Below are positions 3,452 through 7,532 of a stretch of DNA of 24,211 bases, in pieces. The position numbers and the translations under genes are program-made. Under the pieces are notes generated by a model. That model did no database searches. It was not told where the DNA came from and saw only the letters and a list, made by a program, of their open reading frames with translations. The number at the start of each line of letters is the position of its first letter. Position 1 is the first letter of the stretch. Source of the stretch: a virus. The stretch is taken from positions 1 through 24,211 of IMG/VR virus record IMGVR_UViG_3300048999_000333; one strand, given 5' to 3'.

Positions 3452-3894
3452 CCATGCCTGGCAAGGAAAACGGCGGCCACCGCGTCGCCGCAGAGACCGC
3501 CGTGAGCACGCCGCTCAACCCCGATCCTACCGCCGTTCCGACGTGCAACCATCCCGCCGAAGGCGCGCCGCCGTTCCCGCACGCGTGGGTCTACGACTCC
3601 CGCGCCGGCGTCATCACGCGGACGCTGCCGGAAATCCCGGTGCCCGTTCAGATCGACCTCTATCCGAAGTCCGTCGGCGTCGATCGGATCTTCCTGACGC
3701 CTGAGCAGAGCGCTTGCGTCGACTGGCCGCGTGTCGGCGATTGGATGATCGACGCACGCACCCGGCGTTCCCCGTTCGGTGCGCGCGGCCACGCCGGCTG
3801 GACTTACCGCGGGATCACCCTGCGCGCTGGGCGCGAAGTGGCGCCTACGGCCGACGCGCTGATCGCGCTGCTCGCCGAGTCGGTGACGGCATGA
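3448..3894 (+). CDS. Hypothetical protein in replication operon, 148 aa
   Basis: I do not recognise a family. ATG 3448 overlaps the upstream stop as ATGA; a second in-frame ATG lies two codons on. After a low-complexity first 30 residues, the protein shows a mixed pattern with many prolines (TRTLPEIPVPVQIDLYPKSVGVDRIFLTPEQ), a Trp-rich middle (VDWPRVGDWMIDARTRRS) and a C-terminal LIALLAES helix. A single cysteine-histidine pair (CNHPAEG) is not enough for a zinc site. There is no signal peptide or membrane segment. Coupling to the primase gene by another ATGA overlap suggests a role in early phage DNA metabolism; this is context only. Confidence 0.7.
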   Translation: MTMPGKENGGHRVAAETAVSTPLNPDPTAVPTCNHPAEGAPPFPHAWVYDSRAGVITRTLPEIPVPVQIDLYPKSVGVDRIFLTPEQSACVDWPRVGDWMIDARTRRSPFGARGHAGWTYRGITLRAGREVAPTADALIALLAESVTA

Positions 3895-5009
3895 CGGCGC
3901 CCGAGGACGCCGGCACGCAGGCGTACCGCGCCGAGCTGCTGGCGCACGCCCTGGCCTACGTGGCGGCCGGGTGGAGCGTGGCGCCGCTGTCCGCGGTCCG
4001 GTACGTGCCTCACGCCAAGGACCCGGCCCGCCTGGTGAAGGACTTCCGGCCGCTGATCCGGTGGAAGACCGACAAGCCGCTGGACACCGCGGCCGAGGTG
4101 CAGACGTGGTTCGGCGGTGGGCGCTCGGCGGTCTACGGCCTCGCGATCATCACCGGCCCGTCGGGGCTGCTCGTGCTCGACGATGACGGGTACAAGGCCG
4201 GGCGCGGGTCATCGCTGCCCGTGCCCGCCGGTGCGTGGGTGGAGGCCGGCGGCGGCCGGGGCGGGGCGCACGTGTACCTGTCCAACGCCGCAGGGCTGCG
4301 GAACACGGCGAACGCGGTGACCGCCGTGGACAGCCGCGGTGACGGCGGGCTCGTGATCGCCGCACCGACGTGGGCGTTCTTCCCGGACGGCTCGGCGACG
4401 CAGTGGCGCACCGCGCGCCCCCTGCACGAGCTGCCCGCGATCGCTGCCGCGCTGCCGGGCCCGACGCCGGAACTGATGGCGCTGCGCGGCGACGGCGGGC
4501 AGGCGAGGGTGCGCGCGGCGCGTAAACCCGGGGCTCCGGAGATCATCTCCCGGGAGTGGGCCGCGGCACTGGTGGCACAGCTTCGGGGTGAGTTCCTGGA
4601 GACGGCGCAGGGGACCGGCCTGCGGCACCAGGTCATGCGCTTCGGGTGCTCCCTACTGCGCTGGCACCGCGCCTGCGGGCTGGACGACGAGGCCGCTGCG
4701 GAAGAGCTGTACGAGGAGCTGGCCGCCCACGATAACTACCTCACGTGGGAGGAAACCGAGCTGCCCGGCGGGTCCACGTTGGAATGGTGCGCCGACATGG
4801 CGCGTATGGAGCCGTGGCGGTTCGAGGGGGACTGGGCCGCGTCGTTCCCGAAAGCCGCCCCCGCCGAGACGCCCCCCGAGCCGGCGCCTTTCGCCGCGTG
4901 GTTGAGCCCCGCGCTCACCGCTGATATTCCCCCTGAGCTGGCGGCGTTCGATGCGTGGTTGCGCCCCGCGTCCTCCGCACTGCCCTACCTGACCGAGGTG
5001 CCCCGATGA
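3891..5009 (+). CDS. Bifunctional DNA primase/polymerase (PrimPol-type)
   Basis: A 372-aa protein whose N-terminal part resembles the prim-pol domain of archaeal plasmids and actinobacterial phages. It shows AYVAAGWSVAPL at the start, a block with IITGPSGLLVLDDDGY (acidic cluster Asp97-Asp99, expected metal ligands), then GGRGGAHVYL with the usual histidine, and GDGGLVIAAPT. This domain makes primers and extends them. The region from about 220 to 325 is a helical C-terminal domain (WAAALVAQLRGEFLE, RHQVMRFGCSLLRWH). The last 45 residues contain two imperfect copies of a P-x-x-A-x-F-x-A-W-L-x-P-A segment, an odd acidic/aromatic tail that could dock a partner such as the next gene product. ATG 3891 overlaps the upstream stop. 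Confidence 0.85.
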   Translation: MTAPEDAGTQAYRAELLAHALAYVAAGWSVAPLSAVRYVPHAKDPARLVKDFRPLIRWKTDKPLDTAAEVQTWFGGGRSAVYGLAIITGPSGLLVLDDDGYKAGRGSSLPVPAGAWVEAGGGRGGAHVYLSNAAGLRNTANAVTAVDSRGDGGLVIAAPTWAFFPDGSATQWRTARPLHELPAIAAALPGPTPELMALRGDGGQARVRAARKPGAPEIISREWAAALVAQLRGEFLETAQGTGLRHQVMRFGCSLLRWHRACGLDDEAAAEELYEELAAHDNYLTWEETELPGGSTLEWCADMARMEPWRFEGDWAASFPKAAPAETPPEPAPFAAWLSPALTADIPPELAAFDAWLRPASSALPYLTEVPR

Positions 5010-6373
5010 GCCTGCCGAACATCCCGGCCGCCGTGTACGAGACGCGGCCACTGCTGAAGGAACTGCGCGCCGAGGCGCACCGCCGGGCGGTCGGCGCCGA
5101 CGCCGTGCTGTGGTCGTTCCTGACCATCGCCGCGGCCGACGCGCCCGCGCAGATCTCGGTGGACACCGGCATCGGCACGCCGGCCAAGCTCACGCTCTAC
5201 GCCGTGCTGGCGGGCCGCTCCGGCACGGGCAAGTCCGCGGCGTGGGGCGTCGCGCGCAAGCTCTACGGCGACGGGCCCGAGCCGCTGCCGTTGTCCACCG
5301 GTGAAGGCATGATCGAAGCGTTCTTCGGCATGGTGCCCGAGGAGATCCCGCACCCCACCGACCCGAACAAGCCGCCCAAGATCATCAAGGTGCGCAAGCG
5401 CACGCGCTCCTCGCGGCTGTTCTGGCTGGACGAGGGCGAGAGCCTGTTCAAGCAGGCCGAGCGGATGGGCTCACAGCTGCACACCACGCTGCGCGGCTTC
5501 TGGTCCGGCGGCACTGTGGGCCAGGCGAACGCCACCGAGGGGCTGGGGCGCGTGCTGGAGGCCGGGACGTACGCCGGGGGACTGGTGATCGGGCTCCAGC
5601 CGGACATCTCCGGGCGCCTGCTCGCCGACACCGCCACCGGCACGGCGCAGCGGTTCGTGTGGACGGCCACCACGGACACGGGCATCCCGTTGTCCAACGG
5701 CACGCCGCCCGGCCCGCCCATGCCGATCCAGCCGGTGCCGTGGACGCGCCCGAACCTTCCGGTCATCCCGTCCATGCCCGGCCCGGGGGGCGTGCTGGAG
5801 GCGCTGTTCGCGCCGCTTCCGCCGGTCACGATAACGGTGGAGCCAGACATCGCGCTGGAGCTGGACACCCGGCGCCGGCTCGTGGCGGCTGGCCGAGAGG
5901 AGCCGGACGAGTTCGACACCCAACGCCACGCCATGCACATCAAGGTGGCCGCGGTGCTGGCGTGGCTGGACGGGCGGTTACGCGTCACGCGGGACGACTG
6001 GGCCATCGCCGGCGAGCTGCTGGGGGCGTCCGACGCCGTGCGGGATGCGCTGATCGAGCACGCCGACGGCGCCGAGCGGGAGGATATGGCCACCGAGGCC
6101 GTGCGCCGGGCGCGGGCGCGTGACGCCGAATCGGACGACCGGATCACCGAGCAGAAGTTGCGGTGCGCCAAACGAATGAACGACATCGTGACCGAACACG
6201 GGCCGATCGGTGCCGCGGCGATCCGCAAGCGGTTGTCACGCGCGCAACGGCCGATGCTCGCCGAGTTGCTGGAAAACGCGGTCAGGAACGGCGTGCTTCG
6301 GGCAGCCGACGTAGCCGGAACCGGGCAGTCAGGTACTCACTATGAGATCAACTCTGGTCACCGAGTGGAGTAA
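5006..6373 (+). CDS. P-loop NTPase, phage replicative helicase-like (DUF3987-type)
   Basis: A 455-aa protein with a Walker A motif GRSGTGKS (70-77) and a likely Walker B FWLDEGE (Asp142, Glu143). The order and the LLVIGLQPD-like segment after it (GGLVIGLQPDISGRLLADT) resemble the DUF3987 group of phage and plasmid proteins that act as ATP-driven helicase partners of prim-pol primases. About residues 390-450 form a probable winged helix (MNDIVTEHGPIGAAAIRKRL...MLAELLENAVRNGVLR), which could recognise origin DNA. The ATG at 5006 overlaps the primase stop as ATGA, so both are probably made in fixed ratio. The stop codon is immediately followed by the repeat-rich region proposed as origin. Confidence 0.78.
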   Translation: MSLPNIPAAVYETRPLLKELRAEAHRRAVGADAVLWSFLTIAAADAPAQISVDTGIGTPAKLTLYAVLAGRSGTGKSAAWGVARKLYGDGPEPLPLSTGEGMIEAFFGMVPEEIPHPTDPNKPPKIIKVRKRTRSSRLFWLDEGESLFKQAERMGSQLHTTLRGFWSGGTVGQANATEGLGRVLEAGTYAGGLVIGLQPDISGRLLADTATGTAQRFVWTATTDTGIPLSNGTPPGPPMPIQPVPWTRPNLPVIPSMPGPGGVLEALFAPLPPVTITVEPDIALELDTRRRLVAAGREEPDEFDTQRHAMHIKVAAVLAWLDGRLRVTRDDWAIAGELLGASDAVRDALIEHADGAEREDMATEAVRRARARDAESDDRITEQKLRCAKRMNDIVTEHGPIGAAAIRKRLSRAQRPMLAELLENAVRNGVLRAADVAGTGQSGTHYEINSGHRVE

Positions 6374-6386
6374 TGCCCGGTCATAG

Positions 6387-6426
6387 GGGTGGCGAGGGTG
6401 GCACTGTCCTTCGGGGCGGTGCCACC
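6387..6426. repeat. GGGTGGC repeats with 8-bp hairpin
   Basis: GGGTGGCGA at 6387-6395 is followed by GGGTGGCAC at 6396-6404. GGTGGCAC (6397-6404) is perfectly complementary to GTGCCACC (6419-6426), with a 14-nt loop. It begins 14 bases after the helicase stop codon, so in RNA it could also act as a transcript-end or attenuation hairpin. Confidence 0.6.
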
Positions 6427-6449
6427 GTCGTTTGTGCAGGTCAGAGCAA

Positions 6450-6618
6450 GGGTGGCGAGGGTGGCGAGGGTGGCGAGGGTCACTTCCCTCAACCGAAAAA
6501 GGTGGCTGTAAATAGATCCAGCCGAAAAGACAGTAGTAGTAATTACCCGCGTACGGGGAGTTTCGGTGTTGGAAAAATAGAGAAGTGGGTGCAGCCACCC
6601 TCGCCACCCTCGCCACCC
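6450..6618. repeat. 25-bp perfect inverted repeat made of 9-bp iterons around an AT-richer core
   Basis: The left arm (6450-6474) consists of the 9-mer GGGTGGCGA at 6450, 6459 and 6468, the last read to its seventh base; the full third copy ends at 6476. The right arm (6594-6618) holds TCGCCACCC at 6601 and 6610 preceded by GCCACCC. The arms are fully complementary over 25 bases with 119 bp between them. Degenerate GCCACCC copies follow at 6642-6648, 6664-6670 and 6674-6680. This fits initiator-binding iterons flanking an unwinding element. Confidence 0.75.
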
Positions 6619-6790
6619 ATCCCTGACCAGCGGAAACAGGTGCCACCCCTCGGCCTTATCGCCGCCACCCCCCGCCACCCTTCGGCCTTACGTCACCGCT
6701 CGGCCACTCTCGGTGCGCATGCCCGGTGTCTGCCGAACACGGGTTACTATTGGGACGATCGTTCAGGTAGTTCCCGCGCAGGAGGTGGCT

Positions 6791-7072
6791 GTGGACAGGC
6801 GCTACGCCAGCACCACCGCGCAGGGATACGGCGCCCAGCACCAGGCGCTACGCCGTGTCTGGTCAGCCAAGGTGGCCACGGGCCAGGTGTCCTGTGCTCG
6901 GTGCGGTGAGCTGATCAAGGCGGGCACACCATTTGACCTCGGCCACCGCGACGGCACGGACAAGCGTGAGTACCAGGGAGCGGAGCACCGCTCGTGCAAC
7001 CGCAGTGCAGGCGCGCAGCTACGCAACGCCAAGGCAGCAGACCCTGCACCCGCACCAATGACGAGGTGGTGA
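6791..7072 (+). CDS. Small HNH endonuclease next to terminase
   Basis: The GTG at 6791 is chosen because GGAGG (6781-6785) sits 5 nt upstream; earlier in-frame ATGs (6713) lack a ribosome site and fall in non-coding sequence. The 93-aa product has Cys35 and Cys38, then FDLGHRDG (His52, Asp54) and EHRSCNRS (His66, Cys69, Asn70). This is a compact HNH fold with a structural zinc held by cysteines. Small HNH proteins encoded beside terminase genes are known in several phages to help the terminase cut DNA at cos ends, so a role in packaging is plausible. An independent homing or nicking enzyme is the alternative. The tail after residue 80 is a low-complexity Ala/Pro segment. Confidence 0.85.
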   Translation: MDRRYASTTAQGYGAQHQALRRVWSAKVATGQVSCARCGELIKAGTPFDLGHRDGTDKREYQGAEHRSCNRSAGAQLRNAKAADPAPAPMTRW

Positions 7073-7217
7073 CCATGCCACGTCTGTCCACTGTGGCATG
7101 TGTGTCACATCAAATGATCAACGACTCTGCGCGGCCGGCCCGGTTTTTTGATCATGGCCAGGCGCCCTTGATCCACGTCCCTATCGTTCTCTCTCCCTCC
7201 GGAGTCTGGGGACCACG
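7073..7217. promoter_or_regulatory. Gap before terminase with 8-bp inverted repeat
   Basis: ATGATCAA (7114-7121) and TTGATCAT (7148-7155) are perfectly complementary, with a 26-nt loop that contains the palindrome GGCCGGCC and a run of T (7144-7149). TGTG/CACA half-sites flank 7093-7110. A 48-codon frame from ATG 7075, ending as ATGA over the small terminase start, exists but has no convincing protein-like composition. The gap lies where cos sites or late promoters are found in related phages, which is only positional support. Confidence 0.4.
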
Positions 7218-7532
7218 ATGAGTGCACAGCTGAGCGGGAACGACGTGCACGGCGCGGTCGTCACGACGCTGGCGGCGCTCGACCTGGACGACGAGGACGT
7301 GGCCGCGCAGGCGCTCGCGCTTTCGCTCGCTTCGGCGCTGGATCGCGAGGATTCGGGTCGGACTCGCGCGGAACTCGCCGGAAAGCTGCTCGCCACGCTG
7401 GAATCGCTCGGCGCCACGCCGGCCGCCCGCAAGGCTGTGCTGCCCCGTGGCGGCCCCGTGGAGCGCACGCCGGAGCAGCGGGCCAAGGACGAACTCAAGG
7501 CGCGGCGCGCGGCGAAGGCGGACGCGTCGTGA
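7218..7532 (+). CDS. Terminase small subunit-like protein
   Basis: This 104-aa protein lies directly before the large terminase and its stop overlaps the GTG start of that gene. It is helical and charged: an acidic N-terminal half (LAALDLDDEDVAAQALALSLASALD), then RAELAGKLLATLESLGATPAARKAVL, then a basic C-terminal tail (DELKARRAAKADA). Small actinophage proteins of this kind in this position are generally called small terminases, which recognise the packaging site and load the large subunit. There is no clear HTH, so the assignment rests on position and resemblance. GGGGA at 7209-7213 is a ribosome site for ATG 7218. Confidence 0.7.
   Translation: MSAQLSGNDVHGAVVTTLAALDLDDEDVAAQALALSLASALDREDSGRTRAELAGKLLATLESLGATPAARKAVLPRGGPVERTPEQRAKDELKARRAAKADAS

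Follow-up and report, generated by a model that had tools for sequence, protein, structure and literature searches.

Do the repeats at positions 6374-6790 of this viral DNA, directly behind two replication genes, form an origin of replication (ori), and which protein would read them? The window, i.e. the whole analyzed stretch of 24,211 nucleotides (IMG/VR record IMGVR_UViG_3300048999_000333), was originally predicted to carry a phage origin at this place, composed of iterons in a 25-bp inverted repeat and initiated by the products of the genes upstream. Direct reading of the sequence confirms the repeats. The left array consists of three tandem GGGTGGCGA units of 9 bp each on the plus strand (6450-6476). 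The right array on the minus strand (6594-6618) is its exact 25-bp complement, corresponding to the reverse complement of 6450-6474, and the spacing between the two arms is 119 bp. The repeat structure is real and far beyond chance: among inverted repeats with at least 60 bp between the arms, the longest has 25 bp, versus at most 13 bp in 1,000 dinucleotide shuffles of 6374-6790 (without a minimum spacer, the shuffle statistic includes an outlier of 24). GGTGGC/GCCACC occurs 14 times in the region versus at most five times in the shuffles, and no further copy of GGGTGGCGAGGGTGGC was found anywhere in the 24,211-base record.

Additional copies of the iteron flank both arrays, as had been described. 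On the left side, two GGGTGGC units are located at 6387-6402 on the plus strand, the first of them beginning 14 bp past the helicase stop (gene end 6373), and on the right side GCCACCC is found at 6642, 6664 and 6674 (6642-6681, minus strand). One left copy (6421-6426), however, points the other way. It is part of a terminator-like hairpin directly behind the helicase stop (6397-6426, plus strand), in which an iteron and its inverted copy form a 13-bp stem around TTCG (GGTGGCACTGTCC-TTCG-GGGCGGTGCCACC). A single inner GGTGGC at 6501-6506 was likewise found as described, inside the DNA enclosed by the arrays. This enclosed core (6477-6593, no strand assigned) is the proposed unwinding element. 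Its GC content of 48%, compared with 69.5% for the window, is the minimum among all 117-bp stretches. In thermodynamic terms, too, no other DNA of the window is weaker, the core deviating from the mean by about 4.7-4.9 standard deviations. The enclosed DNA was thus correctly described as AT-richer than its surroundings. The GC-skew analysis that had been suggested as a check did not single out the site.

The genes around the repeats serve DNA replication, packaging and the building of a tailed virion. A prim-pol gene (P0002; 3891-5009, plus strand) was identified by Pfam (PF09250 Prim-Pol, E 4.6e-19) and by a PHROG DNA primase match. It overlaps by ATGA with the gene of the replicative helicase or initiator (P0001; 5006-6373, plus strand), which has a PHROG DNA polymerase/primase match (C-terminal part, E 4e-31). 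On the other side, the region is bounded by an HNH endonuclease gene (6791-7072, plus strand; phrog_1808, E 3.3e-13). The contig also encodes a serine recombinase, a small HTH protein (2589-2906) and an AP2-HNH protein. Since it carries its own genes for the small and large terminase subunits, portal, head protease, major head protein, tape measure and tail protein, it is assigned to a tailed phage or prophage and not to a satellite.

The helicase itself shows no Pfam match, also not to DUF3987 (PF13148) at E 0.01. Of 59 aligned homologs, 52 do match this family, and DUF927 or D5 was found in none of the 59. DUF3987 has already been predicted to be a helicase accompanying primases (PMC5862659). 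The protein contains a Walker A motif (GRSGTGKS), and a sequence search of the PDB returned essentially P-loop matches. An AlphaFold2 model calculated with 56 homologs, three alignment rows from annotated records being left out of the input, reached a pLDDT of 90.7. The AAA+ domain of the model resembles the archaeal MCM structure 6mii (Z 15.9, rmsd 4.6 over 267 residues), and it is followed by a long helix and a winged helix. A separate AlphaFold2 model of residues 368-455 (pLDDT 84.9) gave winged-helix matches in a structure search. The helicase is therefore predicted to combine an MCM-type AAA+ fold with a C-terminal winged helix, and the latter (residues 383-455; 6152-6370, plus strand) is proposed as the iteron-binding domain from the model, the structure matches and the covariation described below. 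SaPI Rep, Cch and P4 alpha were absent among the structure matches listed, an absence which does not exclude them. A distant common AAA+ ancestry with DUF927 or Primase_Cterm/D5 Reps may exist. The original reading of the two upstream proteins as a prim-pol and a P-loop/winged-helix protein was thus borne out, the second one being a predicted MCM-like helicase, probably of the DUF3987 type, that ends in a winged helix.

A distant blastn search of the region against phages yielded short, chance-like matches only, and because the iteron letters are not conserved, relatives have to be sought via the protein. Scans with P0001 as a single protein found no homologs, since the peptide patterns were too specific, but an alignment of the window helicase with homologous proteins of a Nonomuraea plasmid and of Gordonia and Mycobacterium phages succeeded, retrieving 80 loci each from bacterial genomes and viral contigs. 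The same layout at the same place was first seen in the Nonomuraea plasmid, which carries terminase genes and has TGTGGACA iterons, and in the isolated Gordonia phage DelRio with TTTGCTGG iterons; it is also present in the isolated Gordonia phage BetterKatz. A strict test required exact arms of at least 13 bp and an AT-richer spacer of 60-250 bp within -60 to +340 of the helicase stop. It was passed by 61 of 155 loci (61.8 kb), compared with two loci in the remaining 1,794 kb. A softer score asked for an AT-rich gap with at least five copies of a 7-mer on both sides of it. It was reached by 88 of 153 loci of helicase relatives versus 29 of 7,167 control windows. In Pseudonocardiaceae, the family of the host of locus L019, three strict and two weak positives were found among seven non-redundant loci taken from 390 genomes (0 of 155 control windows). 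A common arrangement consists of two iterons pointing inward, one outward, the AT-rich core, one outward and two inward. In the window, the inward arrays are present, but the inner copy of opposite orientation is missing. The trait is clustered on the protein tree (18 changes versus 41.5 with shuffled labels). In the supported clade that includes the window, 38 of 46 rows carry it. Conservation thus concerns the layout and its place but not the letters of the iterons. The suggested check, a search for the same repeats behind homologous prim-pol/DUF3987 genes, was hence strongly positive for the layout and negative for the letters.

These relatives also bear on the question whether the repeats are simply part of a coding frame or mere satellite DNA. 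An open reading frame of 178 codons (6373-6909) runs across the arrays, and units of 9 bp would preserve its frame. However, no relative of this reading frame was found in Pfam or PHROG, it shares sequence with the HNH gene, which is read in another frame, and at the same place the relatives carry iterons which differ in length and sequence. When viral contigs were searched for the triple iteron, all hits were coding repeats in unrelated contigs, and these true coding copies of a similar triple repeat are one-sided and lack an AT-rich core. A coding or satellite nature of the repeats is extremely unlikely.

A second element, overlooked in the original prediction, was detected by counting k-mers in the related origins. 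This conserved box, CTGACC(T/A)GCRNAAAY, has letters that are constant across distant relatives, unlike those of the iterons. Its extended form CTGACCWGCRNAAAC is 82-fold enriched, with 13 copies in 26 kb of array-positive origins versus 4 in 741 kb elsewhere, and none of two scrambled versions of the box occurs in the array-positive origins. The window has exactly two matches to CTGACCWGCRNAAACR, a left one (CTGACCTGCACAAACG, 6429-6444, minus strand) and a right one (CTGACCAGCGGAAACA, 6623-6638, plus strand). They are mirror images, located 5 bp and 4 bp outside the left and right iteron array, respectively, so that the inverted symmetry extends to the boxes. The CTGACCWGC box may have a role in the origin, for which a priming site or a site for a host factor should be considered first.

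Not all relatives have an array directly behind the helicase gene. It is missing there in L100 and L101 (35-37% identity, branching close to the window) as well as in L106 and L184, all of which kept the helicase. In a clade of 36 rows, mostly from Mycobacteriaceae and Nocardiaceae, none is above the threshold, and a few members have iterons in other spacings. Some loci were scored negative yet show arrays by eye (e.g., L103) or dense iterons in another spacing (e.g., L084). The loci L036-L052 and related mycobacterial prophage loci encode longer helicase proteins and have no array behind the gene. In L136 and L138, a long stretch about 1.2 to 3.4 kb past the helicase stop is densely filled with short repeats (CCTGTCC, CAGGTCG and others) and may be a repetitive coding gene. 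In the cluster O mycobacteriophages Ryadel and Bora (L016, L163), a two-sided module is located about 5.7 kb upstream of the helicase stop, with TGTACAAC-type iterons flanking a TATATA-rich core and three copies of the conserved box. In L163, the module lies at about 1380-1580 and the boxes within 1357-1690. This module is a candidate for a displaced origin, and L163, with the same layout and boxes, is one of the two control loci found by the strict test.

Such a displaced module does not fit a terminator or operator that is linked to the helicase gene's end. As an operator, the array would serve the helicase or another regulator as a binding site for regulating the replication operon or the HNH-terminase genes downstream. 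Repression of their own genes is common among initiators, and the hairpin at 6397-6426 just past the helicase stop has the appearance of a terminator. However, the array is located behind the operon and not before it, and a scan of 6300-7250 revealed no sigma-70-like promoter, which is a weak test in actinobacteria. Moreover, the AT-rich core is kept together with two-sided arrays in distant relatives. A function as operator is quite unlikely.

Which protein reads the iterons was approached by covariation. Among 63 array-positive proteins, the similarity of the iterons correlates with the identity of the C-terminal domain when the ATPase core is taken into account (partial Mantel 0.28, p 0.001), but not with the core when the C-terminal domain is taken into account (0.02, p 0.37); Mantel tests are somewhat anti-conservative when the sequences compared are related. 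L057, L133 and L131 were left out of the test for their poor iteron consensus. Sliding-window analysis showed the strongest covariation at residues 366-425 and none over the last 30 residues, which are nearest to the origin. We infer from this pattern that the winged helix probably reads the iterons. Between the loci L109 and L113, winged helix and origin have apparently been swapped together: their helicase cores are 90% identical, their C-terminal domains 43%, and their iterons differ.

The locus could also be an origin whose iterons are bound by another protein, such as a host factor or the HTH protein encoded at 2589-2906, with the link to the winged helix reflecting joint inheritance. The codons of the winged helix adjoin the origin, and recombination can exchange both together. 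Mere closeness to the origin, however, does not explain the covariation, because the signal vanishes over those last 30 residues, which lie still nearer to the origin. We regard binding by another protein as unlikely.

The joint change of repeats and protein is also relevant for the assumption that the inverted repeat acts as RNA or as a cruciform, i.e. as terminator, attenuator or regulatory RNA. As a single strand, the region folds far better than its shuffled versions (z -9.7). Yet the long distance between the arms does not favor such a structure, no Rfam family was detected in the region, and the arrays consist of tandem units resembling binding sites, with extra dispersed copies. Furthermore, the relatives keep the layout while the letters change on both sides together, and with the winged helix. 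An RNA or cruciform function is very unlikely. For the symmetry, either bidirectional loading or recognition through a cruciform had been suggested. With binding-site-like units and arms this far apart a cruciform is needless, whereas two-sided loading would fit.

Taken as a whole, the region 6387-6681 is very probably the ori of a tailed actinobacterial phage or prophage. The predicted assignment to the upstream prim-pol and helicase is supported by the layout in 88 of the 153 loci and by the covariation of iterons and winged helix. For the window, we infer the start of replication, the binding of the iterons, the number of rings and the bidirectional forks as follows. The helicase (5006-6373) would recognise the 9-bp iterons via its C-terminal winged helix. 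With two arrays facing each other across AT-rich DNA, one helicase ring would probably be seated per side. The AT-rich core would then melt, and the prim-pol (3891-5009) would prime two diverging forks. It is possible, although we propose it only tentatively, that these loci form a widespread and undescribed class of bidirectional actinobacterial phage origins. Two MCM-like rings would be placed head to head, like the archaeal and eukaryotic MCM double hexamer, without a separate loader. Co-evolution of winged helix and iterons would switch the specificity, and the constant CTGACCWGC box would mark a second, fixed step, for example the start of the prim-pol or a host-factor site.

The layout as such is not new. 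Two iteron sets flanking an AT-rich region directly after the genes for primase and helicase-initiator are known from PICI origins (PMC6092414), and the C-terminal domain of SaPI Rep binds an iteron origin directly downstream of its own gene (PMC7581432). The window resembles the PICI/SaPI rep-ori modules (SaPIbov1, SaPI1 and E. coli EcCICFT073), in which the initiator genes are followed by a two-sided iteron ori, and its proposed ori likewise lies immediately 3' of the initiator gene. Autonomous replication driven by the pri-rep-ori segment is part of how PICI-type origins are defined. However, its carrier is a tailed phage with packaging, head and tail genes of its own instead of a helper-dependent satellite, its Rep is a helicase, probably of the DUF3987 family, with a prim-pol and not DUF927 or Primase_Cterm/D5, and its origin contains the conserved CTGACCWGC box. 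By these features, the origin would work like a PICI origin but does not belong to a PICI.

Other systems share parts of this arrangement. In SCCmec elements with the self-loading helicases Cch and Cch2, the helicase gene is also followed by repeats, and the C-terminal domain of Cch2 binds them specifically, but Cch2 has only three 5-nt direct repeats and no two-sided array is reported there (PMC7581432). The helicase families differ from that of the window; a reference of that article describes Cch as MCM-like in its title. Among actinobacterial ICEs, the autonomously replicating SLP1 has the same gene order as the window, a Prim-Pol gene followed by a replication gene (SCO4617/SCO4618, RepPP), but these elements are conjugative with an FtsK-like Tra, and no iteron layout is described there (PMC3218068). 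Plasmid origins of the RepA/RepE type have one-sided direct iterons, in contrast to the two-sided arrays of the window, whose adjacent genes encode a prim-pol and an MCM-like helicase and not a Rep_3/RepA initiator. The alpha protein of satellite phage P4 is a primase-helicase whose C-terminal winged helix binds short GGTGAACA-like iterons near AT-rich DNA. The window shares the C-terminal winged helix, which is predicted in its helicase, the short iterons and the AT-rich DNA with P4, in which ori and crr are separate and the primase and helicase families are different ones. For actinobacterial phages, no description of such origins was found in the open-access literature searched. The statement that the layout is undescribed hence applies to these phages and not to the layout in general.

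A layout that was said to be unique to PICIs is thus extended to tailed phages whose initiator belongs to a different family. This is relevant to the question how satellites and phages exchange replication modules or converge on them. For many actinobacterial phages and prophages, otherwise annotated only with a 'DNA primase', origins would become predictable from sequence. Isolated and culturable Gordonia phages are included, which makes the claim directly testable. From the paired change of iterons and winged helix, one could read, as from a natural table, which DNA is recognised by each of these MCM-like and probably self-loading helicases.
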